Shown in pieces: positions 4,798-28,195 of a stretch of 28,834 bases of DNA. The translations under genes were made by a program, and so were the position numbers. Origin of the DNA: a virus; IMG/VR virus record IMGVR_UViG_3300034198_002073, positions 1 to 28,834 of that record. One strand, given 5' to 3'. How positions within the stretch are numbered: position 1 is the first letter of the stretch; every line of letters starts with the position of its first letter. The notes under the pieces were generated by a model. The model made no database searches. It worked only from the letters and a program-made list of their open reading frames with translations, and had not been told where the DNA came from.

Positions 4798-5077
4798 TGC
4801 CTACCTCCTCTACGGCTATATCGAGCCTCTTGCGAACCAGTTTACGATCACCTTCGGTGAGAGCACCCCAGATTCCATAACGCTCGTGCTTTAATCCCCA
4901 TTGCTGGCATTCAATTTTATGAATGCAACCTCTGCAAACTCTCTTTGCAAATGCAATTTCTAGTTGCCTTCCATCTGTACCCGAAGGATAAACTACATCC
5001 CTTTCCTTTTCAGGGAACCAGAAATCACCACCTACTTCACGACAACCAGGAGATTCAAACTCGTGTGGATGTCGCAC
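4757..5077 (-). CDS. whiB: WhiB-family iron-sulphur transcriptional regulator
   Basis: The 106-residue protein, from a GTG start, has the four WhiB cluster cysteines C12, C48, C51 and C57 in the order C-x35-C-x2-C-x5-C. The family hallmark turn GIWGALTEGDRK is at 68-79, followed by a basic helix RKRLD. WhiB proteins bind a 4Fe-4S cluster and regulate by contacting the host principal sigma factor. Phage copies such as WhiBTM4 are known to repress host whiB genes and affect superinfection. This is the strongest evidence for an actinobacterial host. The GTG at 5077 follows AGGG closely; the true N-terminus could differ by a few residues. Confidence 0.95.
   Translation of the reverse strand: MRHPHEFESPGCREVGGDFWFPEKERDVVYPSGTDGRQLEIAFAKRVCRGCIHKIECQQWGLKHERYGIWGALTEGDRKLVRKRLDIAVEEVGNADATTSVGNSPY
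4803..4809 (-). promoter_or_regulatory. Consensus Shine-Dalgarno for the helicase gene, inside whiB
   Basis: AGGAGGT on the minus strand, with a five-base spacer to the ATG at 4797, fixes the helicase start even though it lies 41 bases inside the WhiB reading frame. It is the best match to the anti-Shine-Dalgarno sequence that I saw in the early block, suggesting high translation of the helicase. Confidence 0.8.
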
Positions 5078-7950: not shown

Positions 7951-8150
7951 TTCTTTACCAGTTCTATTACTAGGTCTTTAATAATACTTACTTCGTGCTT
8001 TAGTCCAGTCAATTCATCTCGCATACTGGATCCTGAATTGGGTTTAAGTTCAGCGAGATAGTGCTTAACTAACCAGCGTACTACTGCTACAAACCCACCA
8101 ACGATGGTCATCACCGCAACTGTTACTGTTGCATAGTCTTCTGCTTGCAT
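7947..8150 (-). CDS. Single-pass membrane protein of the lysis cassette
   Basis: This 67-residue protein has one membrane helix at about residues 7-27 (ATVTVAVMTIVGGFVAVVRW), then a polar region and an amphipathic C-terminal helix (LTGLKHEVSIIKDLVIELVKK). It starts with a TAATG overlap with the tail gene and ends in an ATGA overlap with the endolysin gene. A second holin, an antiholin or a spanin-like role is possible. One-helix proteins with a coiled tail are common beside endolysins in actinophages. Confidence 0.7.
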   Translation of the reverse strand: MQAEDYATVTVAVMTIVGGFVAVVRWLVKHYLAELKPNSGSSMRDELTGLKHEVSIIKDLVIELVKK

Positions 8151-10207
8151 TAAACTGTCCTAATCGTTACTAGAAGGTACCCACCCCAACCAGAAAAACG
8201 CTTGTCTTCAGGGGTGATGTTGATGAAATCCATTTCCTCGATGAGTCCGATATATGATTCATTAACGCGGAAATCCTCTACTCTAATAGTGTCGCCTAGG
8301 TTCTCTATATTCTTAAGCTGAGAAAAGCGATCATAAGCTGATCCTTCATAGCCAACTTCATTATTGAATTTATCGCTTTCGTGATCAAAGCAGAAGAGTG
8401 GGTACTGGATTAACTCCTGGCGTGGCACAGCAGGTAATGCCTTGATCTGGTATCCGGTAAATAAAGGACCTTTTGTAGAGTCCTGGTTTGATCTAATGAG
8501 AGTAAAAGCAAAGCCAAGATATTCTTGAGCTGTTGTTGGATAGTTAATATTTATCTCTGGAACTGCTGCTCCTTGAGCAAAGCTACCAATGCGATAGAAG
8601 TCATCTTGTGCATCGATAGAATCAATTCCAATACCGCCATCTGCTGTATAAATTCTAGCTTGTAAGAGCTTGTAGACTTTATTCTCCAGGGTATTGTACC
8701 TAATGTAACCAGTCCTTAGAAATCCTTCTGGAACCAATCTAGATATATCTTCAGTGTAGACGTGTCCGTTGTTCACGCCTACAGCCGTAGTAGCAAATGC
8801 AAGTTGATCTGTGTTTCCAAGAAATGCTGTTGCTACAGTATCGTATCCTTCTACCTGTAACTCTGGATCTTCTGGACTCCAAGCAAGGTCAAAGCAATAT
8901 GCAAAGACCAATTCTCTTTGAGGCAATGGAGATCCAAGATCTAATCTAATAACCCCTGGATTGTCCTCTACTCCTGTGGCAGCCCAGACAAAACTTCCTC
9001 GTGTTGCAAAGTCAAAGACAGGTTGTATCGTTTCTACGATAAGTGGACCGTATTGTACAGATCCATCTGTATCTGAGATAACACCGGCACGGATTCCCTT
9101 ATTGGTTCCAAAGAGCATATATCCCAAGTATGAATGAATCTTAAAAATTATTTCACCTGTCGGCATCTGCACTGAGGTAATTGCAGAAGTTAAAGTAGGC
9201 ATAGCGCCTGAAGTATTAAGGGTAAACTTGATAACGGATGATTGTGTGCCATTAAAGCCAGACACATAGATAGCTGAACCTGATTCGGTGATACTGGTGT
9301 AGATGTAGCTTACAACTGGATTTGTGTATAAAGGTGCAGGCAAGTTGCTAGTTGTCGTTAGGTCTAGTATTTCATAAATGCTATTATTCACCACGAGAAC
9401 TAAGCGATCTTTAACAAATTCAATAACAGCTCTATCGATAACAAGTCCTGTTTTACTTATTAAAAGCTGTACGTCACCAGTCGGGGTATTGCCAGGTGTG
9501 CCTGTTGTGTGATCTCCGGAAAGAGGTTTTCTGAATAGATGGAATCTGTTTGCCCCACCACCTGATGACCTATTGGTTACGAAGTAGGCATAAGTTCCAT
9601 CATCGCATATGGCATAAACAGGCTCTGATCCAGGTACGTATTCGATAAAATGATCTTCACCGCCATCCCATATCTTATCTACATCATAACCATCGTGGAG
9701 CAGTGCTCCCTCATACTGAACAAGCGGAGTGCCAGACTTCCAACGAATGCTACGAAGGAATTGACCCGGTCTTCCGTTGGCGTTTTCTACTGTAGTTGTG
9801 ACGTGGCCTTCATTTGTATCACGAAGAAGGGTGGCTTGCCCCTTTGTCCAAGGGTTAATGCCCCTTGATAGAGTGTATTGAAATCTTAAAGATTCATCTG
9901 ATGTAGCATAGCCAGTCGATGCTGGCTCATAGAACTTAATACCCTGCCCGTAGTGAAACGATGACTGTGATCGCAACCACCAGCCGCTAAGAGTTTGCTC
10001 ACCAGGCTCACGGCTTTGGTCAATCTGTTGCTTTCGATACTGCGCCGTTACACGGCGGTAAGGCTTCTCATCGTTAGGAGCTACGAAGAACGGTAGACCG
10101 CTAATAGCAATGTCGTAGGCTTCGCCTGTGGCGATAAAGTTTGTGGAACCACTAGGGTTAGATAATTGATACGGAATCGGATCCGTGATATCGTCGCCAA
10201 AGGCCAT
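8150..10207 (-). CDS. Large tail protein with repeated beta-strand segments
   Basis: The 685 residues are nearly all beta strands and turns. The N-terminus (IAISGLPFFVAPNDEKPYRR, then SGWWLRSQSSFHYGQGIKF) is characteristic of a tail protein widely found in actinophages. Residues about 150-460 repeat strands such as DDGTYAYFVTNR, KDRLVLVVNNSIYEIL and GSAIYVSGFNG, resembling a beta-propeller. The C-terminus may form a second domain. A virion surface or tail-hub role in host contact is likely. It sits next to the lysis genes with AAGGAG upstream of the ATG. Confidence 0.7.
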   Translation of the reverse strand: MAFGDDITDPIPYQLSNPSGSTNFIATGEAYDIAISGLPFFVAPNDEKPYRRVTAQYRKQQIDQSREPGEQTLSGWWLRSQSSFHYGQGIKFYEPASTGYATSDESLRFQYTLSRGINPWTKGQATLLRDTNEGHVTTTVENANGRPGQFLRSIRWKSGTPLVQYEGALLHDGYDVDKIWDGGEDHFIEYVPGSEPVYAICDDGTYAYFVTNRSSGGGANRFHLFRKPLSGDHTTGTPGNTPTGDVQLLISKTGLVIDRAVIEFVKDRLVLVVNNSIYEILDLTTTSNLPAPLYTNPVVSYIYTSITESGSAIYVSGFNGTQSSVIKFTLNTSGAMPTLTSAITSVQMPTGEIIFKIHSYLGYMLFGTNKGIRAGVISDTDGSVQYGPLIVETIQPVFDFATRGSFVWAATGVEDNPGVIRLDLGSPLPQRELVFAYCFDLAWSPEDPELQVEGYDTVATAFLGNTDQLAFATTAVGVNNGHVYTEDISRLVPEGFLRTGYIRYNTLENKVYKLLQARIYTADGGIGIDSIDAQDDFYRIGSFAQGAAVPEININYPTTAQEYLGFAFTLIRSNQDSTKGPLFTGYQIKALPAVPRQELIQYPLFCFDHESDKFNNEVGYEGSAYDRFSQLKNIENLGDTIRVEDFRVNESYIGLIEEMDFINITPEDKRFSGWGGYLLVTIRTV

Positions 10208-10216
10208 TGCTTCTCC

Positions 10217-10309
10217 TTAGATAAATGGGTTTAGTAATACTTCATCGATTGCGTCATCAATGTCGCGTGGTTGCAACTCGACTGTACAATCTCCTTCTTG
10301 GTACGGCAT
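10217..10309 (-). CDS. 30-residue microprotein, function unknown
   Basis: The frame starts in a TAATG overlap with the upstream stop (10309) and ends ten bases before the tail gene start. The product MPYQEGDCTVELQPRDIDDA plus IDEVLLNPFI is acidic and compact, ending in a hydrophobic tip. Without it a gap of about 100 bases would remain in a tightly packed block. No function is suggested. Confidence 0.55.
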   Translation of the reverse strand: MPYQEGDCTVELQPRDIDDAIDEVLLNPFI

Positions 10310-10536
10310 TACTTTGTGAAGTTCTCTCCGTCAAAGTTATAGCCGACAAGATATTCTCCTGGGTTTTCTTTAACCCAATCTGTTGCTTCGATAATCTGTG
10401 GCTGACTAAGAAGGATCGCAGCCATACGCTCTTCCGTGTGGATCACATCCACCACCTTGCCATCAATGACGAAGGCAATTTTTACTGGTGGAAGTGGCTG
10501 TGGCTGTGGCTTTGCTGGTGGTTTAATCTTGCTCAT
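10309..10536 (-). CDS. Small phage protein with Pro-rich N-terminus and beta core
   Basis: The start at 10536 is selected by AAGGAG five bases upstream; an upstream in-frame start at 10572 overlaps the previous gene and has no site. The 75-residue product begins with a Pro/Lys/Gln stretch (KPPAKPQPQPLPPV), then KIAFVIDGKVVDVIHTEERM and a C-terminal YLVGYNFDGENF. This looks like the small virion-associated proteins found beside tail genes in many aquatic phages. Function is unknown. Confidence 0.7.
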   Translation of the reverse strand: MSKIKPPAKPQPQPLPPVKIAFVIDGKVVDVIHTEERMAAILLSQPQIIEATDWVKENPGEYLVGYNFDGENFTK

Positions 10537-10808
10537 TTGGTCTCCTTGTAGGGCATATTTACTGCGTGCCATTTACCCTTTGGGCAATAGGCATTTGGAA
10601 GCTTTGTCTTTGCGGCCATAAAGCAACCGCACTCGCTGCAAGTTCCGGCAGCTTGTAAGAATGGACAGCCCTTGCATATCTCCATACGCTCTGCTGCTAC
10701 TTCTGTTTCTACTCTGCCGAGCTCTTTGTTAAATAGATCCCAAGGCCGAGCTGGGCGATCATAAGGCGTTTCCGCCTTCTTGTTAAAGAATTGCTTGAAA
10801 GTTGTCAA
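10533..10808 (-). CDS. Conserved phage zinc-ribbon protein
   Basis: The product has 91 residues from a TTG at 10808 that follows AAGGAG by about six bases; no ATG fits. It contains RPARPWDLF and the Cys pairs CKGC and CSECGC, then YCPKGKW, as in a conserved protein of cyanophage- and aquatic-phage tail regions. The cysteines probably bind zinc. It overlaps the preceding cysteine-rich tail gene by 26 bases and the next small gene by four (10533-10536). The role is unknown, possibly assembly. Confidence 0.8.
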   Translation of the reverse strand: MTTFKQFFNKKAETPYDRPARPWDLFNKELGRVETEVAAERMEICKGCPFLQAAGTCSECGCFMAAKTKLPNAYCPKGKWHAVNMPYKETK

Positions 10809-12066
10809 CGCTATCTCCTTGATTGAAGTTGGATGGTGTCCGAATTATACCAACACCAGGTGCTGTTGAAGGGGAAGACGGGGTTACAACTAGCGGATTG
10901 CTTATAGGTCCGACCAAGCCAGGGCTTGAATAGGCTGTTGTTGTTACTGTGCCATTAAGTAGGTCTACCTTGAGTGATTGAACTGGAGACAGCGTGGCCG
11001 AATTAACTACAATATTCGAGCTTGATTCGGTAACTATATTTCCAGATATAGAGCTAATCATTTTGATCTGTGTTGTATAAGTAGTAACGACTGTTTCAGT
11101 AGTTTGAGTAAAACAGGAGTACTGAGTTGGTTGCTGTGTTGTTGAGGTATATCCGTAATAGACTGCTGGGTAATAACTAAATCCTGTATAACCAGAGTAG
11201 GTTGTAGGTGTGACCGTATTTGCCGTGAAGCAAGCATATGTAACGCTAGATGTAGCCGCATAAGAACGAGCAGGAAAAGTACAGGTTCCTCCGTTAGCGG
11301 AGGTATATGTTCCACCCTGGTTTTGGCAAGACTGAATATTTGTTAAATTTGTTCCGTAGGGAGAAACTACTTGTTGCGGCACATTACAAGTAGTTCCTGA
11401 AAGCGAACCACCTTGAGGGCAAGAATACGTTGTGGTGGATGTGCTAGATCCACAGCAAGAACTTGTGTTGGTTAGCCCACTAGCATAGTTGGCATTACAT
11501 ACACTAGACCCTGGGTTGGTAGAATAACCACCGCAGAATCCTGATGTAGTTGTTTGGGTTTGATAGCCTTGATCACAGGACTGATAAGCAGGATCGACAG
11601 ATGTGATAGCACAGAATATTCCAGAATTAGTGGAGCTCGTGTAACCGGCGTTACAGACTTGACCACCAGGCGTTGAGGTTACCGTAGAGCAGCAAGATGC
11701 CGATGGTGGATTAGAAGTATTGGTTACCTGTACCGCATCACAAGTAAAGACAGAGTTATTGTTTTGTACATAGTTAGGCACAGATGCCCACCAGTTATTA
11801 TCATCCGATGTCCAATAAGATAGACCTACTCCACCATTAAATACGTCGGTAGACAAAGTCGCACTAGAGGCAAAAGGAATAGATGCTATTGGATAAGTGG
11901 AAGCAGCATCGCTAGTTTGCGCTCTAGTTCCATTAGCAAACCAAGCCCCTCGAATTGCGTTCCAAGTTTGGCCTGTGTTTGCTGCACCAAGAGATCCAGT
12001 AGTGGTTCTATTGAAATTATCAGAAATAATTTTTATGATAGAAGCAGCAAAGTTTCCAATTTTCAT
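10783..12066 (-). CDS. Tail fibre-like protein with inserted 26-residue cysteine ladder
   Basis: This 427-residue protein has an N-terminal beta-sandwich (about 1-104, DNFNRTTTGSLGAANTGQTW to NNWWASVPNYV) that seems to resume at about 330-385 (QIKMISSISGNIVTESSS, VQSLKVDLLNGTVTTTAYSS). Between them lies a Ser/Thr/Gly-rich insert with 16 cysteines at 109, 125, 126, 138, 152, 164, 178, 190, 204, 205, 216, 227, 247, 262, 279 and 318. Many are spaced 12 then 14 residues apart, a 26-residue repeat. It most likely sits on the tail tip and binds the host. TAATG overlap at 12066. Confidence 0.75.
   Translation of the reverse strand: MKIGNFAASIIKIISDNFNRTTTGSLGAANTGQTWNAIRGAWFANGTRAQTSDAASTYPIASIPFASSATLSTDVFNGGVGLSYWTSDDNNWWASVPNYVQNNNSVFTCDAVQVTNTSNPPSASCCSTVTSTPGGQVCNAGYTSSTNSGIFCAITSVDPAYQSCDQGYQTQTTTSGFCGGYSTNPGSSVCNANYASGLTNTSSCCGSSTSTTTYSCPQGGSLSGTTCNVPQQVVSPYGTNLTNIQSCQNQGGTYTSANGGTCTFPARSYAATSSVTYACFTANTVTPTTYSGYTGFSYYPAVYYGYTSTTQQPTQYSCFTQTTETVVTTYTTQIKMISSISGNIVTESSSNIVVNSATLSPVQSLKVDLLNGTVTTTAYSSPGLVGPISNPLVVTPSSPSTAPGVGIIRTPSNFNQGDSVDNFQAIL
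11380..11691 (-). repeat. Four 26-residue cysteine repeats in the tail protein
   Basis: Codons 126-229 of the tail gene encode four units beginning at C126, C152, C178 and C204, each with a second Cys 12 residues on (138, 164, 190, 216). CNAGY, CDQGY and CNANY follow the second Cys in units one to three. The fourth unit ends with CPQGG. DNA identity between units was not measured. Confidence 0.7.
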
Positions 12067-12851
12067 TAGGCCTGTGTGTCTCCAGACAGTAGGAATACGT
12101 TCGGAGCAATACAGATAAGTGTCGCAGCAGACCCATTGGTACGCAGTCTTGGACCAAGTGATGACTTAATCGTCACTCCAGATCCTGAAACAGTTACTTG
12201 ACCTATGTTGTTTTGCAGTAAGTTGATTTGCGCTCCAGTAGCAAAAATCCCAGAAGGTACTGTTACCGTTACAGATGCAGCATTTGTGAATGTCTTAAGC
12301 TTTCCGATATCAGATGCCGATAGGGTATAGGTTGTAGTGGCTACGTCTTCGACCACAATAGTTTCAGAGTAATTGTTGACCCACTTTAATCCAGTTGCTT
12401 CTGCGGAGTTAACAGCAAGGATCTGACCCTGTGTTCCGACTGGCAATACTCCTGTTTCCTGGATACCTGTTCCAGCGATCATATCTCCCTTGGAGTTGAT
12501 GCCAGAGTCAGTCAGGGCATTTACCACTCCGTTGTTGAAGAAGATAAGGTCATCGGATGTAAGTACGTGGCGTACTGTTGCACCGCCTGAGTGACTGATG
12601 TTAGAAGAACCAGCTTCTCCACGACTAATTGTAAACGTATCTCCCGACACGTTAGAGATAAATATAATTTCTTCGTTGATAGTATCTGGATCAACAGCTA
12701 CGGTAAACTGATCTGATCCATTAGGGTTAAGCACTACACCACCTAGAAGAGATGCTCCTGTTCCAAGTGCTACAGTCATCGATGTCTGTGTAGAAGATAT
12801 ACCTGATGCAAGTGTTGTCTCTACGCTGATACTTGAATATTCACGGGTCAT
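12066..12851 (-). CDS. Tail fibre-like structural protein
   Basis: This 261-residue, mostly beta protein is rich in Ser, Thr, Val and Gly. The N-terminal part (TLASGISSTQTSMTVALGTG, then DPDTINEEIIFISN and FTISRGEAGSSNISHSGGA) is the short baseplate-like domain found in many phage fibres. The C-terminus (SVTVTVPSGIFATGAQINLL, SGSGVTIKSS, RTNGSAATLICIAPNVFLLS) is a typical phage fibre-end beta domain. Together these suggest a fibre or tail-spike component. The gene is between the adaptor and the cysteine-ladder protein. Confidence 0.7.
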   Translation of the reverse strand: MTREYSSISVETTLASGISSTQTSMTVALGTGASLLGGVVLNPNGSDQFTVAVDPDTINEEIIFISNVSGDTFTISRGEAGSSNISHSGGATVRHVLTSDDLIFFNNGVVNALTDSGINSKGDMIAGTGIQETGVLPVGTQGQILAVNSAEATGLKWVNNYSETIVVEDVATTTYTLSASDIGKLKTFTNAASVTVTVPSGIFATGAQINLLQNNIGQVTVSGSGVTIKSSLGPRLRTNGSAATLICIAPNVFLLSGDTQA

Positions 12852-12860
12852 TTTTCTGCC

Positions 12861-13754
12861 TTATTTTGTGTAGTGGATACGGATTGGGAAACGATCTTGT
12901 AGCTTGAATGCTTCTTCTTGTAGGCGATTCTGATATACGGCATAGATATAGCGTGATGATGCAGTACCAGCATTAGATGGCATCTTGCTATCTGCCAGGT
13001 CTGACTCTGCACTTGTAAGGGTAATTCGTCCTGAGTCAACATAAGAGAGAAGCTTATATGAGGCACCAAGTGTTACAACATCTCTTGCAGAAGCAGGTAG
13101 TCCTGTTAGATCAAACTCATCTGTTGAGTTTTCAAGAGACAGAGCTCTTTTTGTGTAATAGACCTGTACTGTTCTACCAGGCTGGATGTTCTCATAAATG
13201 TTAATTGTGTTTGTTGTACCAAATGTTGCTATGTTAGCCATAGAGTCCATACGCCAACGGTTGATCGGAAGCCATTCAAGGCTTGATCCTGTTGTCTGCC
13301 AAGAAGCGTAGAGAATAGACTCTACGTCATTTGGTAGTTCGTATGTTGTTTGAGAAGCGTTAAAATTAAATGTAGTAAAGCCTACGCCCCAGAGTTTAGG
13401 GAAGAGACTCTGGATCGAATCATTGATCGCCTGCTTAATTACAGATCGTGGAAAGGTAGGAGATAAAGTTACTTGGGTATACTGTGGGTGAGCTTCTTTG
13501 GTTGTACCTTGGAATCCTCGACCAAATCCAGGAGCAGCATTAAGAGTGTTAAGGGATTTATTAAAGTTATCTATCCAGACGAGTTCATCGCCCACCTCGA
13601 TAATACCTTTAGCTAGGTTGTTCTGTGAACCAACTTGAAAGCTAAGAGATGTATCGCTGACTGGAACTTGTAGGTAAGTGATTCTATCCTGGCGAAGCGT
13701 ATAGCCGGCCAGAGATGATCGGACCTCATCAATCATTTGACTAAGAGTTGCCAT
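12861..13754 (-). CDS. Head-tail adaptor / connector protein (probable)
   Basis: This 297-residue protein begins MATLSQMIDEVRSSLAGY and has RSVIKQAINDSIQSLFPKLW, a helix pair typical of phage head-tail adaptor proteins. It then has a beta core (TYELPNDVESILYASWQ, TVQVYYTKRALSL) and a final helical stretch (ARDVVTLGASYKLLSYVDSG). In podovirus-like phages this protein links portal to tail. GGAGGAAGG lies upstream. The assignment depends on pattern and order, not a diagnostic motif. Confidence 0.55.
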   Translation of the reverse strand: MATLSQMIDEVRSSLAGYTLRQDRITYLQVPVSDTSLSFQVGSQNNLAKGIIEVGDELVWIDNFNKSLNTLNAAPGFGRGFQGTTKEAHPQYTQVTLSPTFPRSVIKQAINDSIQSLFPKLWGVGFTTFNFNASQTTYELPNDVESILYASWQTTGSSLEWLPINRWRMDSMANIATFGTTNTINIYENIQPGRTVQVYYTKRALSLENSTDEFDLTGLPASARDVVTLGASYKLLSYVDSGRITLTSAESDLADSKMPSNAGTASSRYIYAVYQNRLQEEAFKLQDRFPIRIHYTK

Positions 13755-14103
13755 TGTCGGTTCCTTCCTCCAAGTTTAATTCTTTCCAAGATAAATTTTC
13801 TTCATCCCAAAGCCAAGACCTTGCATCGTCTTCAGGATATGGAACAGGTGCCTTCCAGGTGCAAGTTTCTTCATCAAGGATCCAGGATTCAAAAATCTTA
13901 GGAGGAAGAAAGGCATCTAGATCAGCGGAGTATGTCCCACCAACTTGTGCAAAGTTCTTTCTAATGTTTCCATTGTAAGAAGTTTTAACCCAGGTACCAC
14001 CTAAAGATTTTACAAATGATTCACCTTCATCTGGTGCGCTGTTACTACCAACGACTACCCGAAGAACTGTGTTGTCCTTATTTAATTCAGCCCAATGTGA
14101 CAT
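13741..14103 (-). CDS. Conserved phage tail-region protein (aquatic-phage SHWAEL family)
   Basis: This 120-residue protein begins MSHWAELNKDNTVLRVVVGS. It also has WVKTSYNGNIRKNFAQVGGT, AFLPPKIFESWILDEETC, and WDEENLSWKEL at the end. This pattern occurs in many marine and freshwater phages, often near fibre genes, and is of unknown function. The many aromatic residues suggest a beta-rich structural protein. It overlaps the adaptor gene by 14 bases, and the upstream adhesin stop is one base away. Confidence 0.75.
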   Translation of the reverse strand: MSHWAELNKDNTVLRVVVGSNSAPDEGESFVKSLGGTWVKTSYNGNIRKNFAQVGGTYSADLDAFLPPKIFESWILDEETCTWKAPVPYPEDDARSWLWDEENLSWKELNLEEGTDNGNS

Positions 14104-14104
14104 A

Positions 14105-15775
14105 TTATTTAGCCCACCTTATTATGAATAGTCCAGAACCTGGTCCGTGACGGCTTACTGTTCCACCGCTTCCGGTGTTTGCACCACCACCTCCACCAAG
14201 TCCATCTGCTCCAATATCATCGTTAGACCATCTTCCACCGCCGCCGCCAGCATAGTAACCGTTGTTTACTCCAGTAGAAGTGGCTGTAGCCCAATCAGAG
14301 AACTGTAATCCGTTTCCTCCTCTTGCATTAAAATCTCCTGAAACGACAGCACCACTTCCTGCTTGACCCGCACCGCCACCGCCGCCGCTTGCAGCGTTAC
14401 AGCCAGAGGTCCTGTATCCATTGCCACCGTTGTAACCCTGTCCTGCGGTTCCGGCACCTCCGCCACCACCCCAGTCTCCGCCGCCACCTGATCCGCCTGA
14501 CCCTGCTCCTGTGTAGTACAGATTGGCTCCTTGGCCACCGCCAATAGCAGTTTTTGTAAGACTAGATCCTGTAAGCGATGAGTCATTTCCTCCTCCTGCA
14601 CCAATGATCACAGAATATGAACCTAGTTCAAGAGATGGAACAGTTTCGTTTATCAATCCACCTGCGCCACCGCCGCCGCCATTTCTAGCAGCTCCGCACC
14701 AAAATTCTCCAGGGCCATTGAACCCACCGCCAGCAATAAGAAGTATCTCAGCATTCGTTAATGCAGCATTGGAGATCGTCAGTGTGTCGCTTGCTAAGAA
14801 TGTTCTGTAGTAATAGTTTGAGTCTTCACTCAATGTTCCACCAGTAACTACTGCACTTGGTAGAGTTTCCACGCACATATTTGTACTTGGATCAAACAGT
14901 CCACCATTAGGACAGTTGTATGCTGGGGTGATAGTTACCGTACTAGAGTAGTTAATTCCTGTATCAGATACTGAAATATACTGTACTCCGTAATACCCAT
15001 CTGGCTGAATGACGTAGTTTGACTGACCCCAACCAGCAGCGTTTGGATAAGTATTTCCAACTACTATTTTTGTTTCAAGCTGTCTGATTACCGTTCCATC
15101 ATCATATCGCCAAGAAGCTGGGAAACCATTATATGGTTGATCATTTGCTACTATCCATCCTTGATAGTAGTAAATACTATTTCCTAGGAAGGTTGCTGGA
15201 TATTCGATAAATGCTGGAGTTGCTCCAGGAGATGTTGCAGCTGGACCCCAACCAAATGAGTTGTGTGCTTCAACTGTAAAGAAGTACAGAACTCCGTTGG
15301 TTAGATCAATAAATGTATAAGGACCGGAAGCTACTTCAACAGGCAAAAACTCTGGATGATCCACTACGGTTATTCTATATTTATCAACAGGGGCGGAGCC
15401 TTCATCCGCTGGAGGAGCCCAGTTGATAGTTGCCGACTCATTACCTGGTGTAGCAATAAGAAGAACCGGAGCACCAGGTGTAGTAATTTGCGGTGTTCCT
15501 GTTAATTGTCGGAGAGCTGCTGCCGCAGGTAGGCCAGTAGTGCCAGCGAGGTAATTACATACGCCACTATAGTCAAGCCAAGAACCACGAGCAAGCCCCG
15601 CAATTTCATTTAATAGTCCCACCGTATCTGTTGTTGTTGGTACAATTCCTTCTCTTTCAGCCCAAGCTCTTGCCGCAGCTGCTTCGTCTAAGGTATTGAC
15701 AGGAGGATAAGTTCCACCGTTGGCAAGGCGATTGAGCTCACTTAGGAGCGTTGAGTTCGGATTACCTGTTGGCAC
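14105..15775 (-). CDS. Tail adhesin with FN3 domain and Gly-rich C-terminal domain
   Basis: The 556 residues start at a GTG preceded by AGAGGACATA. Residues 99-188 are a fibronectin type III domain (PGAPVLLIATPGNESATINW, YRITVV, GVLYFFTVEAHNSFGWGP). Residues about 190-285 are beta-rich. YNCPNGGLFDPSTNMC (287-301) is a small disulphide module like one in the cysteine-ladder protein. Residues 312-556 form a Gly-rich domain (EILLIAGGG, YSVIIGAGGG, then long Gly runs), the fold used by phage receptor-binding adhesins such as T4-like gp38. Likely the host-recognition protein. Confidence 0.8.
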   Translation of the reverse strand: MPTGNPNSTLLSELNRLANGGTYPPVNTLDEAAAARAWAEREGIVPTTTDTVGLLNEIAGLARGSWLDYSGVCNYLAGTTGLPAAAALRQLTGTPQITTPGAPVLLIATPGNESATINWAPPADEGSAPVDKYRITVVDHPEFLPVEVASGPYTFIDLTNGVLYFFTVEAHNSFGWGPAATSPGATPAFIEYPATFLGNSIYYYQGWIVANDQPYNGFPASWRYDDGTVIRQLETKIVVGNTYPNAAGWGQSNYVIQPDGYYGVQYISVSDTGINYSSTVTITPAYNCPNGGLFDPSTNMCVETLPSAVVTGGTLSEDSNYYYRTFLASDTLTISNAALTNAEILLIAGGGFNGPGEFWCGAARNGGGGGAGGLINETVPSLELGSYSVIIGAGGGNDSSLTGSSLTKTAIGGGQGANLYYTGAGSGGSGGGGDWGGGGGAGTAGQGYNGGNGYRTSGCNAASGGGGGAGQAGSGAVVSGDFNARGGNGLQFSDWATATSTGVNNGYYAGGGGGRWSNDDIGADGLGGGGGANTGSGGTVSRHGPGSGLFIIRWAK

Positions 15776-15787
15776 TATGTCCTCTTT

Positions 15788-16045
15788 CTACCACTTGACT
15801 TTGTCTGCCCAATAAGCGGCAGATAGTTTTCCTTTAGCAATGTTCTTTGCGTGTCGTGCTTTGAATGAAGCCTGACGTGCAGTTGGCTTTCTATCCCCAA
15901 TTACGCCCTGTTGTCCAAAGCGAATAGTTCTTATTTGATCTCCTTCTTTAGCCACAACTACGTGCGACTTAGTAGGATGATTAGGAGTACGCTTGGGCTT
16001 ATTGAAGCCCGCTACTCCTGCTCGTTCTAGTCTTGGATCCTTCAT
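15788..16045 (-). CDS. DUF6321-like basic phage protein
   Basis: This 85-residue protein begins MKDPRLERAGVAGFNKPKRT and continues with VVVAKEGDQIRTIRFGQQGV and SFKARHAKNIAKGKLSAAYW. This pattern is conserved in cyanophage and pelagiphage proteins annotated as DUF6321. It is strongly basic. It starts with a TAATG overlap with the Lys/Pro-rich gene. A virion-associated or DNA-binding function is possible, but none is established. Confidence 0.8.
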   Translation of the reverse strand: MKDPRLERAGVAGFNKPKRTPNHPTKSHVVVAKEGDQIRTIRFGQQGVIGDRKPTARQASFKARHAKNIAKGKLSAAYWADKVKW

Positions 16046-16296
16046 TATCTTTTCTTAACTGCTGCTTTTTTCTTAGCTTTTTCTTTTTTGATTGTTGCTG
16101 GATCGTTGTAACCTGGGATGATCACATCAGCATCAGATGGAGCCGTGCGCCAGTTCTTATTAGGCTTTAGCGGAGGACTGTATAAAGGCTTTGGCTTCAC
16201 TGGTGTTGGCTTTGGTGTTGGCTTTGGCGTTGCCTTGACTGTAGCCTTTGGTGTTGGTTTCTTTGCGACAGCCTTCTTAGGCTTCATTCCTGGCAT
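16045..16296 (-). CDS. Lys/Pro-rich histone-tail-like protein
   Basis: This 83-residue protein has a first half of Lys, Pro, Ala and Thr repeats (KKPTPKATVKATPKPTPKP and so on), resembling histone H1 tails or disordered DNA-binding tails. A central segment (YSPPLKPNKNWRTAPSDADV) precedes a basic KKEKAKKKAAVKKR tail. The DNA has matching short repeats (GGCTTTGGTGTT type on the plus strand). It may condense DNA or act as a disordered linker. No enzyme motif is present. Confidence 0.7.
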   Translation of the reverse strand: MPGMKPKKAVAKKPTPKATVKATPKPTPKPTPVKPKPLYSPPLKPNKNWRTAPSDADVIIPGYNDPATIKKEKAKKKAAVKKR

Positions 16297-16303
16297 AATT
16301 ATT

Positions 16304-16459
16304 CTACTCTCTTGCAGCAGCTGCGTTGTCTATTAGATTCGGATAAGGACGTCCAGCTTTTTTAGCAGCAGCCTTAGCTTTAGCGATTTGAGCTGGAGTT
16401 AACTTCTTTGAAGTTTTCTTAGGATTCTTTTTATCCCAAAATGCTTTCTTGGCTTTCAT
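16304..16459 (-). CDS. 51-residue Lys/Ala-rich protein
   Basis: The frame starts in an ATGA overlap with the upstream stop (16456-16459) and ends in TAG at 16304-16306. The product (MKAKKAFWDKKNPKKTSKKL, TPAQIAKAKAAAKKAG, then RPYPNLIDNAAAARE) has the GRPYPNLIDNAAAAR ending common in small phage proteins next to head genes. It is basic and helical. Probably a virion or DNA-associated peptide; function unknown. Confidence 0.75.
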   Translation of the reverse strand: MKAKKAFWDKKNPKKTSKKLTPAQIAKAKAAAKKAGRPYPNLIDNAAAARE

Positions 16460-16626
16460 TTTTTAGCCTTTTTCTTTGGCTTGGCTTTCTTCTTTGCTTT
16501 CTTCGCTTCCGAAAGTGCAATAGCGACAGCCTGCTTCTGTGATGTGACGACTGGGCCTTTCTTGCCAGAATGAAGTGTTCCTTCCTTCCATTCCCCCATC
16601 ACCTTCTTGACTTTATTAACAGCCAC
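16456..16626 (-). CDS. DUF6496-like small basic protein
   Basis: The product has about 56 residues if the GTG at 16626 is used, giving MAVNKVKKVMGEWKEGTLHS, the start usual in this family; a GTG at 16638 would add four residues. VTSQKQAVAIALSEAKKAKK is characteristic of DUF6496-type phage and bacterial proteins. The tail is Lys/Ala only. The upstream 23-residue gene overlaps it by 11 bases. No strong Shine-Dalgarno is seen, so coupling is likely. Role unknown; basic and likely DNA-associated. Confidence 0.75.
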   Translation of the reverse strand: MAVNKVKKVMGEWKEGTLHSGKKGPVVTSQKQAVAIALSEAKKAKKKAKPKKKAKK

Positions 16627-16687
16627 AAGACTTGCCACAGTTTTTGCACTTGCCTTTTGGCTTTGCTGATGTCTTCTTCATTGCCAT
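16616..16687 (-). CDS. 23-residue Cys-rich metal-binding microprotein
   Basis: The ATG at 16687 overlaps the stop of the upstream gene (TAATG). The product ends KGKCKNCGKSCGC, four cysteines in a C-x2-C-x3-C-x-C arrangement fit for binding one metal ion. It fills a spot between two coupled genes and is too short for most gene callers. The regular junction and the cysteine motif are the evidence. Confidence 0.6.
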   Translation of the reverse strand: MAMKKTSAKPKGKCKNCGKSCGC

Positions 16688-16836
16688 TACTTTGCTGCCT
16701 TTCCTGCTGCGCCTGTCTGGATTGACTCATATGTTGTGTAGCGAAGGTTGCCTGCATACTGCTTATCCGCTGCTGGGTATGGTGTGTAGTCTTCTTCCTG
16801 ACCTACTTCTTTTACCTCGATTGGTTTCATTTCCAT
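16687..16836 (-). CDS. 49-residue protein, function unknown
   Basis: AAGGAGTAATA precedes the ATG at 16836. The product (MEMKPIEVKEVGQEEDYTPY, PAADKQYAGNLRYTTYESIQ, TGAAGKAAK) is acidic at the start and ends in a small-residue tail. It ends in a TAATG overlap with the 23-residue gene. It looks like a virion-region small protein; no family recognised. Confidence 0.7.
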   Translation of the reverse strand: MEMKPIEVKEVGQEEDYTPYPAADKQYAGNLRYTTYESIQTGAAGKAAK

Positions 16837-16838
16837 TA

Positions 16839-17120
16839 TTACTCCTTGAAGGTTAGTGTTGTTCCATCGAATGCCTTACCGACTTCGTTGGAAAGATGAA
16901 CTGCTTTATTGATATCCTCCATCTTGGTAGATCGAGGCTCAACTCCTTGCGCTATGGCACTTCTATATGCCGCTAGTTCTTTCTCGTCTTTCTTTACTTT
17001 GTCGGCATCCCACCCTGTCTTACTTGGGTTTACTCCGACAAACATAGGAGAGTTCTGACGTAGGCACTCACCATAGGATTCGTGATCCTGCGTCTTACAC
17101 GAGCTTGTACAGCTAGACAT
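16839..17120 (-). CDS. Conserved actinophage protein with Cys-rich N-terminus
   Basis: This 93-residue protein starts MSSCTSSCKTQDHESYGECL, with Cys at 4, 8 and 19. It continues with NPSKTGWDADKVKKDEKELA and a C-terminal helix (INKAVHLSNEVGKAF). The CKTQDHxSYGECLR pattern occurs in small proteins next to capsid genes of actinophages and may bind a metal. TAATG overlap with the upstream gene at 17120. Function unknown. Confidence 0.75.
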   Translation of the reverse strand: MSSCTSSCKTQDHESYGECLRQNSPMFVGVNPSKTGWDADKVKKDEKELAAYRSAIAQGVEPRSTKMEDINKAVHLSNEVGKAFDGTTLTFKE

Positions 17121-17443
17121 TATTCCTCCAGAATTGGTGTGAGGTACTCTGCGTACCCAGCTGCAATAAGCACAGCCGCTTGTTCATTACTGATCGTGTA
17201 CTCGTGACCACCGAGGAAGTAGTAGTCAGCAGCGGCAAGATCATCTTGGCTAGGTGTCTGGTTTTCTACCACTGTAGTTCCAGTTACTAATAAAGATATA
17301 CCTCTACGGATATCAGTCATAGAATATGGAATAGCACCTGTATATGTACCACCAATTAACCTACGTCCAGCAAGTCGAGAGTATGGAGTAAACTGATCCA
17401 TAGCATACGTTTGATTATTGAACGGTGTTACTAATGTGTACAT
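17120..17443 (-). CDS. Small head-region protein downstream of the capsid gene
   Basis: The start at 17443 is selected by AAAGGTTAG just upstream. A longer in-frame start at 17554 would run back into the capsid gene and across a hairpin. The 107-residue product begins MYTLVTPFNNQTYAMDQFTP, has a beta-rich core (GGTYTGAIPYSMTDIRRGIS) and a helical C-terminus (SNEQAAVLIAAGYAEYL). Position next to the capsid gene suggests a head-completion or decoration protein. This is inference only. Confidence 0.65.
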   Translation of the reverse strand: MYTLVTPFNNQTYAMDQFTPYSRLAGRRLIGGTYTGAIPYSMTDIRRGISLLVTGTTVVENQTPSQDDLAAADYYFLGGHEYTISNEQAAVLIAAGYAEYLTPILEE

Positions 17444-17464
17444 ATCTAACCTTTCTATAGTGAT

Positions 17465-17488
17465 GGAGGACAGGTTTCCCTGCCCCCC
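17465..17488 (-). promoter_or_regulatory. GAAA-tetraloop hairpin just downstream of the capsid gene
   Basis: On the minus strand ten bases (17479-17488) pair with 17465-17474, with two G-U pairs, around a GAAA loop (17475-17478), a stable GNRA tetraloop. It lies 11 bases after the capsid stop codon, with no U-run after it, so it is more likely an mRNA-stability, attenuation or processing element than a full terminator. Confidence 0.55.
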
Positions 17489-17498
17489 ACCGTGCAAC

Positions 17499-18686
17499 TT
17501 AGTAGCTTGAACCTGTCTGAATGTTGTACAGAGCAGCTTCACGAAGGCGTGCAAAGCCTCCGAAGTAGTACCAACCGATGGTACGGAAGCGACGGAGCGC
17601 GTCGATCTCTGGACCGATAACGGTAGAGATATCTGCTGCTTGTGCTTCTGCTAGTGCTTCACGGCCAGCGACGATTGCGTAATACGCTCCGCCTGCTGAT
17701 GGGTAAGAAACATCTCCATCTATTCCTCCAGGAGATGTCTGTTGTTCCCAAGTTCCTGTGGAAATGTTGAAAGTGCTTCCCATAGTGCTTCTGTTAGTAA
17801 CAGTTGCTGATGTTCCATTGAACCCAGCATTAGCTCCAGTAAGATTAGAGAATGTAACAACGTCGCCAATTTCAGGAAGTGTTAACAAGTTGCTAATTGC
17901 AAACTGAGCTCCTGGCAAACCTGGAGTAACATAAATTGCATCTAAGCCAGCTGTTTGACTTGGCTGAACGATTTGTCCGTTGACATTTGTACCGAAGAGA
18001 ACGCGTGGTGTCTCAACGATGTATGCACCTTCAAGTACGCCGATTGAACCAGCGGTGAATGGTGTGCGCTCTACGTACTTTGTGAGCTCCTGGAAGCCAC
18101 CTGTACCTGCTTCAGCGCGGAGATCCGCTGACTGACGTGGGTGTAGGTATGCTGCATAGAGTTCGCCAAGGCGTGGAAGTGCCTTGTTTGTACGAAGGTT
18201 AACCACAGCCTGACGGACGAGATCAACAGACATAACGCCTGGAGTCGCACCTGGAGCTACGATTGAGTTCTGACCTGTTGAAAGTGTGTTAGCCACGATC
18301 TTATCAATAGAGTCAGCTGCGTTGTAAGCGATGATGTCAGCAAGAGCTGAGTCAACATCGTTGAATGAGGTAAGGTTGAGCTTCTTTGTTGTTGTTACAG
18401 CTGAACCGTACTCGTTTAGTGTTACTGAAACCTGTGTAGGGTTTCCGAGTGCAATGCTTGATACATCTGTTGCCTCTGTCAATGTTGAAGTTGCCTGAGC
18501 AAGATCTGAGTAGATAGAGAATACAACTGATGAACCAGGCATAGCTTGCTGAACAGGCTTGACGTCTGCGACTGAACGCATCACAGGGATATCGCGAAGA
18601 GCCATACGAACGTATTGATCATACGCTGTCTGGACCAACGCGCTAATTTGCGCCGTGCCTGTTGTAGCACCATTTGGAATTGCCAT
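17499..18686 (-). CDS. Major capsid protein, N4-gp56 family
   Basis: This 395-residue protein opens with SALVQTAYDQYVRMALRDIP and continues with SSVVFSIYSDLAQATSTLTE, then VTLNEYGSAVTTTKKLNL and a helix DSALADIIAYNAADSIDKIV, the usual N4-gp56-type capsid pattern (HK97 fold). GELYAAYLHPRQSADLRAEA and the C-terminal helix (REALAEAQAADISTVIGPEID) follow. Residues about 237-332 are a Ser/Thr/Asn/Gly-rich insertion that may form a surface Ig-like domain. The scaffold gene is directly upstream, as is normal, and AGAAAGG precedes the ATG. Confidence 0.9.
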   Translation of the reverse strand: MAIPNGATTGTAQISALVQTAYDQYVRMALRDIPVMRSVADVKPVQQAMPGSSVVFSIYSDLAQATSTLTEATDVSSIALGNPTQVSVTLNEYGSAVTTTKKLNLTSFNDVDSALADIIAYNAADSIDKIVANTLSTGQNSIVAPGATPGVMSVDLVRQAVVNLRTNKALPRLGELYAAYLHPRQSADLRAEAGTGGFQELTKYVERTPFTAGSIGVLEGAYIVETPRVLFGTNVNGQIVQPSQTAGLDAIYVTPGLPGAQFAISNLLTLPEIGDVVTFSNLTGANAGFNGTSATVTNRSTMGSTFNISTGTWEQQTSPGGIDGDVSYPSAGGAYYAIVAGREALAEAQAADISTVIGPEIDALRRFRTIGWYYFGGFARLREAALYNIQTGSSY

Positions 18687-18720
18687 TTGGTTGCTTACCT
18701 TTCTTTAGTTGGTTGTTGGA

Positions 18721-19191
18721 TTAGAGACCAGACTCTGCAATAATGTTGGCCAACTCTTCCTTACTTTTCGCACTCATTAGACGATTATGGATATCTTGTC
18801 CGTGCTCAGGTGTGAAACCTGCGTCTACGGCTCCTGTCATTTTCTGATATGCAGTAATGTGAGCTGGATCTACATTAGGCCTTGCCTGGTTTTGCCCGAT
18901 ATCTACGCCGAAAACATCTGCGTATTCTTCAAGCCATTTCGACACCGACTCTTCAGTTGGGTCAATGTCCTGTGGGATAAATGAAGCGATCTTCTGATTT
19001 ACCCCGCGAGCTGCGAGGGTATCCTTAATTGCTCTTTCGCGTTGCGCCTTGCTAAGTCCTTCAAACTGTGCCTTAAGTTCAGCAAGTTCTTTGTCCTTTT
19101 GCTTAGATGCTTTGCGTAGTTGCTTTACTAGGTCATTAGACGAGTCATTGGTGTAGTCGTCGTCATCGTCCTCGTAGTCGTAATTGGACAT
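18721..19191 (-). CDS. Scaffold-type capsid assembly protein
   Basis: This 156-residue protein is acidic at the N-terminus (DYEDDDDDYTNDSSNDL), with a coiled-coil helix (VKQLRKASKQKDKELAELKA, residues about 22-41) and a helical C-terminus. This composition, together with the position immediately before the major capsid gene, is the norm for phage scaffolds. It would guide capsid assembly and be lost in the mature virion. No protease motif is visible. The ATG is preceded by GGGAGATGG. Confidence 0.8.
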   Translation of the reverse strand: MSNYDYEDDDDDYTNDSSNDLVKQLRKASKQKDKELAELKAQFEGLSKAQRERAIKDTLAARGVNQKIASFIPQDIDPTEESVSKWLEEYADVFGVDIGQNQARPNVDPAHITAYQKMTGAVDAGFTPEHGQDIHNRLMSAKSKEELANIIAESGL

Positions 19192-19313
19192 AGTCCATCT
19201 CCCTTATCGTTAGTTGATTTCGCCAGCCTCACACTCCATTGGGGGATGGGTATGGCTCTGACTCCTGGTTTTATTGTCGCTCCACCGGTCCAGTCGCTCC
19301 GGTGGCAGGTCTG
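19192..19313 (-). other. Longest gene-free stretch of the window, upstream of scaffold and capsid
   Basis: These 122 bases separate the 390-residue virion protein from the scaffold gene. They contain a perfect seven-pair GC-rich hairpin (19282-19288 with 19299-19305) with a ten-base loop. An eight-base repeat, GGAGCGAC on the minus strand, occurs once in the loop region and once just after. I see no clear promoter, U-run or gene with a start codon. Position suggests a signal that sets capsid-gene expression. Confidence 0.5.
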
Positions 19314-20486
19314 TTAGTAGGCTTGATTACGACTTAGTGCCGTACTTGTTATGCCTGTTTTCTTTGAGAAGGATGCTTGCTCCATCTCATTGATCTTTTC
19401 GCGTTGGCGCTTGGCTTCTGTAGCGTTGCCGAGTCCATAGACTTCAGCTTCTACTTGCTCCATACCGTATGGACCTTGTCCATATAGTGCAGCTAGTTCG
19501 CTACCGCGAGGTGCTGTCTCCTTGATAGCCTGGGCTCCAAGGCGTGCCTTCTCAGCTGTGACACCTTCACGCTGTAATCTTTCAGCGTTAGCGACATCGA
19601 TAGAATCTGTGAGTCCAGCACGTAGATATTCTCCGCCGATCTTAGCGGCACCGATCTTAGATTGGATCTGAGTCAATGCGTTCTTTGGATCCAGTACATA
19701 GGCCATAAGATCGCCACGTTGAATGTCTGGATAGAACTGCTTGATAGCATCAATATATTCTTTTGGACCCTTATCAATAACATCGGATGCTTGTTGTATG
19801 CGGTTCTCTAGCTCTACCGCTGATACGTCCCCAGCAATAAGTTTGGTAAAACCTTCTTGCGTTCCCATCTCATCTTTTGTGTAATAGCTGGCAGGTAAGC
19901 CATAGTTACGCATAATGTTCTGGTACTGATCTTCCATAGCAATATAATCTGCCTCATCTAATGCGGCAAGACCTGCTGCTACTCTTTGCTTGTTAGCCGC
20001 AAAGCGCTTTTGATACTGAGGTGTTCCTCTTAATTCCATAGTAAATTCAGCTGGGCTTGCGCCCTTGACAATAAGATTCCTAAGCGGTTCTACTAGAGAA
20101 CCTAGTCCGTATTGTGCAAACTGGGTGTACAAAATATCATATGCTGACTGCCCTGCACGACGCTTATCTTCAGCTGCTGCTCTATCGGCAGCTTCTCTAT
20201 CTGCTACAACCGTACCTTTTTTGCGCACTGTTTCTGTGCCATCGTCGTAGATATCAATAACATCTCCGGTCTCAGGATCAGAATAAGTAGACTGAAGTTT
20301 TCTTCTAACTATTGGATCCATCTCCAGAGGCTTTAATGTTTTAACAAATTCTTTCTCCGCTGCACTTGCGGCAGTTTGAGCAGCAATATCAGCTTGAAGA
20401 TTTTCTCTAGTTGATTCTGTTCCTTGAATACTTTTAAGTAGGTCATCGTATTGCTTAAGTTTTCTTTTTTGAGCTGCGGTTGCCAT
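19314..20486 (-). CDS. Internal virion protein, probable ejection component (390 aa)
   Basis: The protein is largely helical and rich in Ala, Glu, Lys and Gln, with a coiled start (AQKRKLKQYDDLLKSIQGTE). Segments such as YQNIMRNYGLPASYYTKDEM and FTKLIAGDVSAVELENRIQQ recur in phage proteins between portal and capsid genes of podovirus-like actinophages and pelagiphages. No enzymatic motif is visible. GGGGTAAAG precedes the ATG. It is probably one of a set of internal or ejection proteins with the next three genes. Confidence 0.6.
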   Translation of the reverse strand: MATAAQKRKLKQYDDLLKSIQGTESTRENLQADIAAQTAASAAEKEFVKTLKPLEMDPIVRRKLQSTYSDPETGDVIDIYDDGTETVRKKGTVVADREAADRAAAEDKRRAGQSAYDILYTQFAQYGLGSLVEPLRNLIVKGASPAEFTMELRGTPQYQKRFAANKQRVAAGLAALDEADYIAMEDQYQNIMRNYGLPASYYTKDEMGTQEGFTKLIAGDVSAVELENRIQQASDVIDKGPKEYIDAIKQFYPDIQRGDLMAYVLDPKNALTQIQSKIGAAKIGGEYLRAGLTDSIDVANAERLQREGVTAEKARLGAQAIKETAPRGSELAALYGQGPYGMEQVEAEVYGLGNATEAKRQREKINEMEQASFSKKTGITSTALSRNQAY

Positions 20487-20488
20487 CT

Positions 20489-22006
20489 TTACCCCTGGAA
20501 TCCAAAGTCACGCAGTACGTTAAGAGCTGCATTAGATACCTCTTCACGCGCCTGCTCTGTGTATTGCCATCTTTTATCTTGCTTAAGAGCTTTCTTAAAG
20601 TCGTAGATATTCATATCACCCTTATCGCTAATGGCCATACGAAGAGTCTGATCGTTGAGATCAATTTGATCAGGGTTAATCTCTAAAATGCTTGCCATAG
20701 TATTTTTATATGGTGAGTAGATTTGATCTAGGTTATAGCCTTGTCCTAGTAGATCACGGACATACTGTGGTTGACCTTGCGCTGCAAGCTTACGCGCATC
20801 TTGTGCTAGACGATCTGCATCAATAGTTCCTTTAGCCAGGCCCTGTAATACCATCTGCTCATTCTGCCCACCAGGAAGAACGTCACTGATCTTAAACCCA
20901 TTACTTCTGGCAATATTCTGGATAGCCTGATAGTCCTTAAGAGCTTCTCCAGAATAACCTTCGGTCTTAACGCCAGCTATAGTAGAAGTTATTGGGCGGA
21001 TAGCTGCCGCAATAAAGTCATTGGTCATAGCGTCGTCAATGCCAACATTGGTGATGTACATATTCTCAGCAGCTCTGCGAAGAGCTTCTGGATCTGATGC
21101 TAAACCAGAACCTATCTTGCGTGCTTTATCGGCAAGCTTTCGTTCAAGTGTAGAAACCTGCTTTTCGTAGTCAGTGGATCCATCTGCCTGACCAGTTGCT
21201 ACTAGATCACGATAGTTGTATAGCTGCACATAACGTGCCTTGATCTCAGCTGAATTCTTGCGATACCAGTTGTCGTCACGGATTGCTTTGCGGAGCTTCT
21301 CTGGCGTCCAGTCTTCTTTGACGTATCTATTTAATAAAGCCTTTAGGCTAGGTACATTATTGAAGATAGTTTCAGGTAAAGCAAAGTCTTGCCCAGCTGC
21401 TACATCTAGTGCTTCAGCGCGTTGCTCTTCATCGGTAGGAACAGCTTTTTTATCTTCGCCTTTGCCACCCTTGCCGCCTGTGCTCCCACCTACACCTTTG
21501 CTACCTGTGCTACCTGTGCCAGAATCAAGAGCAGGTGTTTCCTCTGTCTTTGGTTTAATAGGAGTATTTGGGTCTTTATCTATACTGTCTGGGATACCAT
21601 CTCCATCAGTATCATTTGCCTTGCCGCCTGTCATTCCAGGCTTTCTTTCTCTGGTTTCAAACCCAGGCATAGGCTTTCCGTCGAGACCAACTGGAACTAT
21701 TCCAGCCTTCTTCATCTCATTGATGATCTTATCGGCTTCTGCTTTATCTCCGGTTGCAAGCGCTAAGTCAAGCTTAGGTTGAAGATCTTTTTTAGCTTTA
21801 GTTCTTTTCTCTTCTTGCTTTAATTCTCTTTCTAAGCCTTTAAGTTTATCGTATCTTGCTTGAGCATTTTGTACTTGCTTGAGAAAGAATTTGTAGTCGG
21901 CATTATCTACTCCACGTTCTCTTGCTATTTTTTGAAGAACAAGTTTTGACTGATCAAGAGCTCGAAAAGCATCGCGTATTTCTGCGGAGTATTTATTATC
22001 TGCCAT
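20489..22006 (-). CDS. Internal virion protein with calcium-binding-like motif (505 aa)
   Basis: The N-terminal 100 residues form a coiled coil (VQNAQARYDKLKGLERELKQ). They are followed by DTDGDGIPDSIDKD at about 132-145, a thrombospondin type-3-like calcium loop with Asp at 132, 134, 136, 140, 143 and 145. A Gly/Ser/Lys-rich linker follows (about 162-188). The C-terminal 300 residues are helical, with ENMYITNVGIDDAMTNDFIA and similar. A virion ejection or internal role is inferred from position. TAATG overlap with the upstream gene. Confidence 0.6.
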   Translation of the reverse strand: MADNKYSAEIRDAFRALDQSKLVLQKIARERGVDNADYKFFLKQVQNAQARYDKLKGLERELKQEEKRTKAKKDLQPKLDLALATGDKAEADKIINEMKKAGIVPVGLDGKPMPGFETRERKPGMTGGKANDTDGDGIPDSIDKDPNTPIKPKTEETPALDSGTGSTGSKGVGGSTGGKGGKGEDKKAVPTDEEQRAEALDVAAGQDFALPETIFNNVPSLKALLNRYVKEDWTPEKLRKAIRDDNWYRKNSAEIKARYVQLYNYRDLVATGQADGSTDYEKQVSTLERKLADKARKIGSGLASDPEALRRAAENMYITNVGIDDAMTNDFIAAAIRPITSTIAGVKTEGYSGEALKDYQAIQNIARSNGFKISDVLPGGQNEQMVLQGLAKGTIDADRLAQDARKLAAQGQPQYVRDLLGQGYNLDQIYSPYKNTMASILEINPDQIDLNDQTLRMAISDKGDMNIYDFKKALKQDKRWQYTEQAREEVSNAALNVLRDFGFQG

Positions 22007-27825: not shown

Positions 27826-28039
27826 CTGTTTCCTCCCATAATGTTTCTAGATCGGTGGTCATTTCTTGCCACACTTCGTTTTCTTTTGTTTTGCGATTAG
27901 CGTGATATATAGATAACTCATATAGATCTTCGCAAAATGTGCTTACTGACTTAGTAAGATTCATTACAAGCCCTGCTGTTACTACAGCAACATCTGACAG
28001 GCGTACTGGGCGTGGAAGCCTTTTATCGTTTTCTGACAC
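27815..28039 (-). CDS. Small conserved phage protein, function unknown
   Basis: The product has 74 residues from a GTG at 28039, chosen because AAAGG sits eight bases upstream; a GTG at 28048 is too close to it. The product starts MSENDKRLPRPVRLSDVAVV and has a central helix (CEDLYELSIYHANRKTKENE) and an acidic tail. The family appears in aquatic phages next to the portal. No function is known. Confidence 0.7.
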   Translation of the reverse strand: MSENDKRLPRPVRLSDVAVVTAGLVMNLTKSVSTFCEDLYELSIYHANRKTKENEVWQEMTTDLETLWEETDGK

Positions 28040-28059
28040 CCAGTACACCTTTCATCAAA

Positions 28060-28179: not shown

Positions 28180-28195
28180 ATTTACACCTCCTCCA

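Follow-up and report, generated by a model that had tools for sequence, protein, structure and literature searches.

The carbohydrate-binding-type domains of the mycobacteriophage Douge CFP and of BppU bind mycobacteria and their glycans (PMC13033339). The C-terminal domain of the Douge central fibre gp20 and the carbohydrate-binding module of BppU have the same sandwich fold as the protein described here. Douge gp20, however, is located at the tail tip of an actinobacterial phage and its glycan binding has been shown experimentally, whereas location and binding of the present protein are predicted; in addition, Douge gp20 and BppU align with it without the long insert of its family and have no sequence match to it. 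Its best fold match, CBM66 of Bacillus subtilis, is likewise a compact domain without insert, and the C-terminal receptor-binding domain of mycobacteriophage TM4 gp23 (9n6a) matches the fold of another member of the family but leaves the insert unmatched. A disulphide-stabilized knob with diverse cysteine patterns, carried on a beta-strand stalk, has been described in bovine ultralong CDR H3 antibodies (PMC6440498, PMC5994613). These share with the adhesin proposed here the principle of beta-sandwich, stalk and knob, although the adhesin stalk is only predicted, the antibody domain is unrelated and has no common ancestry with it, and the likeness is one of working principle; moreover, the antibodies vary by somatic mutation, whereas the adhesin varies between phage lineages. 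Disulphides in a phage tail have been shown by cryo-EM and mass spectrometry for phage Milano (PMC10811340), where they form a fixed network within and between tail subunits, whereas those of the adhesin would lie inside the variable insert of one protein. Finally, the Planktophila phages E7 and F5, which infect Ca. Nanopelagicales, carry a 5-kb variable island with tail-fibre and collagen-like genes, for which a role in host recognition has been proposed (PMC10202952). Lying next to homologous backbone genes (46% identity), this island is the same kind of slot as that of the present gene, but in E7 it holds glycine-rich and other proteins and no cysteine-insert protein.

The gene lies in the IMG/VR virus record IMGVR_UViG_3300034198_002073, the 28,834 bases of which were analysed as a whole and are called the window below. 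It occupies positions 10783..12066 on the minus strand and encodes a protein of 427 amino acids. The reading frame is real, as neighbouring genes overlap it (its start overlaps the upstream stop in TAATG) and both halves of the protein match independent family profiles, those built without the window protein reaching E 2.4e-18 for the N-half and E 1.2e-8 for the C-half. The N-terminal half of the sandwich (residues 10-108; 11743..12039, minus strand) is free of cysteine and has the motif GVGLSYWTSDDNNWWASV in its last strand; the cysteine-rich insert (residues 109-318; 11113..11742, minus strand) follows, and the C-terminal half (residues 319-426; 10789..11112, minus strand) ends in VDNFQA. 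The original prediction of 16 cysteines within residues 109-318 was borne out by a count in the open reading frame, of which residues 105-330 correspond to window positions 11077-11754: cysteines occur at 109, 125, 126, 138, 152, 164, 178, 190, 204, 205, 216, 227, 247, 262, 279 and 318, and nowhere else. At 3.7%, the cysteine content stands out against that of the genes at 12066-28834, which are mostly structural and nearly cysteine-free, at 0 to 0.9%, with 3.2% in one small open reading frame.

An AlphaFold2 model of the window protein, built on an alignment of 50 members of its family, had pLDDT values mostly above 90 in both flanks and below 50 over most of the insert. Two long strands border the insert, formed by residues 90-109 (11740..11799, minus strand) and 319-339 (11050..11112, minus strand), and the first and last cysteines (109 and 318) lie at their ends; in the former strand pLDDT was ~97 up to residue 100 and ~80 at residues 101-110. 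In VIA-align, the flanks matched CBM66 with a Z of 18.2 (2.3 Å, 151/161 residues, 13% identity) in an alignment that spans the model range 16-426 and skips the insert, and they matched the Douge central fibre tip with a Z of 16.8 and BppU with a Z of 14.8. The confidence of the flanks and the CBM66 match uphold the earlier proposal that the flanks are two halves of one beta-sandwich and the ladder an insert; in the predicted structure, the flanks are one concanavalin-A-like/CBM66-like sandwich domain. As a Pfam search returned nothing at E 0.1, the window protein is assigned to this class by fold only. A second model, of member L127 with 8 cysteines and an insert of ~90 residues, reached a mean pLDDT of 87; here the insert itself was modelled mostly at 79-93, with short strands and a hairpin at each CPSGG...C unit. 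CBM66 and Douge headed the fold matches of L127 as well; the receptor-binding domain of TM4 gp23 was also listed for this member, at a Z of 14.2, and is absent from the best 50 fold matches of the window protein. A search of viral structures matched six uncharacterised proteins of uncultured phages.

The regular spacing seen in the window protein is genuine: as had been predicted, cysteines 126, 152, 178 and 204, and likewise 138, 164, 190 and 216, lie 26 residues apart. Six cysteine pairs at distance 26 exceed chance expectation (P ~1.5e-4 for that distance, and P ~0.005 for the best of any cysteine-cysteine distance from 4 to 79), as do two four-cysteine runs sharing one spacing (P 0.006). 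The copies of the ladder begin at residues 109, 138, 164 and 190, and a further copy, which has the form of a CP unit, begins at residue 216. Unit 1 (residues 109-137, beginning CDAVQVTNTSNPPSASCC; 11656..11742, minus strand) is the copy nearest to the units of relatives, and is followed by unit 2 (residues 138-163; 11578..11655, minus strand), unit 3 (residues 164-189; 11500..11577, minus strand), unit 4 (residues 190-215; 11422..11499, minus strand) and the CPQGGSLSGTTC unit (residues 216-227; 11386..11421, minus strand), which the family uses more often than any other cysteine unit. The homologous ladder unit of relatives has the pattern CDQ-x(n)-NPPxGxCC-x(n) and a length of 26-31 residues; among the window copies only the first (residues 109-134, 37.7 bits) clearly resembles it, the others retaining mainly the cysteine register. 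The exact 26-residue spacing is therefore local; since relatives have units of variable length or quite different cysteine patterns, the period had to be given up as the defining feature, and by sequence comparison it is incidental rather than a conserved property.

The family was found on ~100 environmental phage contigs. By sequence, the window protein matched nothing in 50,697 phage records, in Pfam or in the PDB; used at full length as a query it retrieved nothing among viral contigs or phage records, and a PHROG search gave a weak match only. Neither did tblastn with other family members succeed, and no relative of the N-half was found in genome contigs. The family was first retrieved from viral contigs with a degenerate DNA pattern for Y.CP.G..L.GT.C, which yielded many proteins of a shared layout: the N-half closes with G.GVAFWV.DANNWWA, the middle is rich in cysteine, and the C-half closes with a motif resembling VDNF. 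A DNA pattern for WT.D..NWW, tried as another probe, retrieved unrelated contigs only. An alignment scan with the N-half added further members, a motif from the first ladder unit of the window led to closer relatives, in which that unit occurs up to seven times, and scanning with the C-half revealed still other members with up to 64 cysteines. The same sandwich is present in every member, and an insert of ~50-570 residues always breaks it at one and the same hairpin. Relatives cleanly lacking the insert, which the original prediction had led us to seek, were not found by sequence, and the insert-free counterpart exists only at the level of the fold, as in CBM66. As literature searches gave no description of such proteins, the cysteine-insert proteins are an undescribed family. 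Among the variants, two members (L384 and L385) have very long inserts with tandem CTGGTVSCTDSTNTCTP units, L384 having 52 cysteines, and the inserts of L176 (1651-3231), L174 and L147 also carry tyrosine-rich tandem repeats (AQLNPAYSFSYS) without cysteine.

In most cases, the family gene comes after a gene for a fibre or minor-tail protein, and the phages, which have several different backbones, often encode WhiB. Of the genes directly upstream of members, 31/75 have a match to phrog_8780, a minor-tail family, and further ones to families of tail fibres; a C-terminal domain present in 40/75 of them also occurs in the upstream gene of the window (E 9e-19, with a profile made without the window). 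That upstream gene (12066..12851, minus strand) is of tail-fibre type, matching phrog_38058 (tail fibre) and phrog_23837 (virion protein). The family gene thus adjoins tail-fibre genes, a feature by which receptor-binding proteins are recognized. A separate observation is a match to a beta-1,4-glycosyltransferase family in 8/75 of the upstream proteins (best E 6e-116). In the window, the adhesin gene occupies a variable slot (8150-12851, from the fibre-type gene to phrog_11667) that was compared in L004-L011 and L035-L114. The conserved backbone genes phrog_7578 (12861..13754, minus strand; weak SU10 adaptor match) and, on the far side of the slot, phrog_11667 (8150..10207, minus strand) have counterparts in Streptomyces phages such as WRightOn (Manuelvirus, subfamily Beephvirinae) and closer ones (~46% identity) in two records, among them OX376640, which is named LanE43-AprE7. 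In backbone relatives, the slot is either empty or filled with glycine-rich proteins, propeller-like repeat proteins or other small genes; a cysteine-insert protein is absent from all 88 of their loci. The WhiB-like domain is a marker of actinobacterial phages; it is encoded in the window (4841..5050, minus strand; E 7.8e-13) and in 12/13 family-bearing records longer than 60 kb, compared with 0/22 comparison records. The family-bearing phages probably infect actinobacteria, and the host of the window phage probably belongs to the freshwater actinobacteria.

Comparison of family members revealed that the insert is the part that changes. In 81% of 226 member pairs, its similarity was below that of either flank, and for pairs with 90-97% identity in the N-half the mean identity was 94% in the N-half, 68% in the insert and 88% in the C-half; a variable part on a conserved anchor is a further feature of receptor-binding proteins. 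A reverse transcriptase (PF00078), by which a diversity-generating retroelement would be recognized, was present in 0/31 records, several of them fragments. In composition, the insert is high in Thr, Ser, Gly, Cys and Tyr, low in charge and contains 0.4% His. One member (L207) adjoins tail-sheath and tail-tube genes and thus belongs to a contractile phage, whereas another (L265) lies in a backbone resembling that of the window, which indicates that the module moves between phage types.

We consider the best explanation, with a probability of about 0.68, to be that these proteins are glycan-type tail adhesins in which a beta-hairpin stalk carries a diversified knob tied by disulphides; the stalk, the location, the binding and the disulphides are what we infer. 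The hairpin of strands 90-109 and 319-339 would leave the sandwich and act as the stalk, with the insert at its tip binding the host receptor, be it a glycan or another molecule. All cysteines of the insert would pair with one another to give a rigid, protease-resistant surface, and the insert would alter as cysteine units are duplicated or lost and as substitutions rapidly accumulate. Because the sandwich would stay constant meanwhile, the phage could acquire a new binding surface and leave the tail as it is. The receptor-binding arm of the original prediction thus stands as the best reading of the insert in a tail-associated protein; the binding part could also be the sandwich itself. The latter is what would hold if the insert were a stiffening or protective element, such as a spacer or protease shield, and the sandwich alone bound glycans. 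The sandwich does match glycan-binding domains, and the tail of Milano is indeed stabilized by disulphide networks (PMC10811340), but one would not expect an element that serves only as a spacer to outpace its flanks in divergence or to vary its cysteine pattern freely, and we regard this explanation as rather unlikely.

The numbers of cysteines bear directly on the proposed disulphide-tied knob. When cysteines were counted from the start of the sandwich in complete members only, their number was even in 89/89 members, where it ranged from 4 to 40 and took 17 values, and in all 11 of the 11 further complete members found through the C-half, which have up to 64; the count is thus even in 100/100 complete members, over a range of 4 to 64. 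Six members with apparently odd counts (L137, L155, L205, L232, L278 and L282) are even from the sandwich start, their extra cysteines preceding the sandwich, in three of the six within an apparent over-long start. The 89 members fall into 75, 36 and 24 clusters of insert similarity at 90%, 60% and 50% identity, respectively; if the 60% clusters are treated as independent tosses of a coin, all of them would come out even with a probability of ~1.5e-11, a value that is a guide only, given shared ancestry. As a control, 38% of the other open reading frames of the same loci with at least 4 cysteines have an odd number. Cysteines are concentrated in the insert (1,192 in 13,421 residues, compared with 0 in 7,534 for the N-half and 7 in 8,200 for the C-half). 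Because the ladder units of the relatives of the window protein hold three cysteines each (C...CC), duplication of units does not by itself force even totals. Furthermore, of 106 member pairs at least 70% identical, 54 differ in their cysteines, always by an even number, and the changes among close relatives include a C-x4-C that has become Y-x4-Y and cysteines gained together at two positions separated by 71 columns. The even totals, together with gain and loss two at a time, strongly imply from the sequences that the insert cysteines are fully paired as intramolecular disulphides, and the disulphides envisaged in the original prediction are thus very probable.

Binding of metal by the insert cysteines in place of disulphides would fit the closely spaced cysteines of many members, but we consider it very improbable: counts such as 6, 10, 14 and 22 misfit Cys4 sites, histidine is as scarce as stated above, pairs come and go together even at the distance just mentioned, and the related CPxGGxLxGTxC units sit in secreted, membrane-anchored or TraN proteins. 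For the disulphide-tied adhesin, the cysteines would be oxidized in the virion, most likely outside the cytoplasm and probably once the cell has lysed, because the cytoplasm in which phage proteins are synthesized is reducing. None of 21 records, one of them the window, yielded a DsbA-like gene. The whole family poses the question of how, and at what stage, a protein from a reducing cytoplasm gains up to ~30 disulphides.

The CPxGGxLxGTxC unit is found outside the family as well, in proteins that lack the sandwich: bacterial proteins that are secreted or anchored in the membrane, and TraN of F-type secretion systems. On account of this distribution, the unit looks like a general extracytoplasmic disulphide unit. 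Gut Bacilli, for example, have membrane-anchored proteins with ~30 to 40 cysteines and CPxGG units (L312, L317, L319, L322, L355 and others). The original prediction had also raised imitation of a cysteine-rich surface protein of the host. Such mimicry would agree with the presence of the units in secreted bacterial proteins and with viral contig L139, which encodes a signal-peptide protein of the same kind of units (YTCPNGG...C, 30 cysteines, no sandwich). However, the genome matches were mainly to Bacilli, sphingomonads and others, with few actinobacteria, and no related unit surfaced in Nanopelagicales genomes. Imitation of the host therefore gains no specific support from so widespread a unit, and we give it little credence. 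Finally, neutral, fast-drifting low-complexity sequence would account for the Ser/Thr/Gly-rich composition, the repeats and the many gaps, but drift predicts about half of the counts to be odd and is contradicted by the lack of a single odd count in 100 members, so that it is the least credible explanation of all.

The adhesin with a disulphide-tied knob can be placed in a wider frame, which we propose tentatively, at somewhat less than even odds: actinobacterial phages may possess an antibody-like display system, in which a lectin-type sandwich bears a hypervariable knob with 2 to 32 disulphides on a hairpin, is swapped between contractile and non-contractile phages and acquires new specificities through gain and loss of cysteine pairs or units. 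The fast-changing insert with its even cysteine numbers suggests that these viruses vary a disulphide-tied binding surface in a manner that recalls cow antibodies. If this is true, phages of very common freshwater bacteria would present a fast-evolving surface for binding that is rich in disulphides and differs from the fibres of cultured phages, and the family would be a natural collection of cysteine-rich binding scaffolds. Two minor features of the window may be added. The small gene just downstream of the adhesin gene (10533-10808) encodes six cysteines of the CxxC type, matches DUF6171 (E 1e-6) and is possibly a zinc ribbon, and a 12-base tandem repeat of 4.8 copies is present at 16201-16257.
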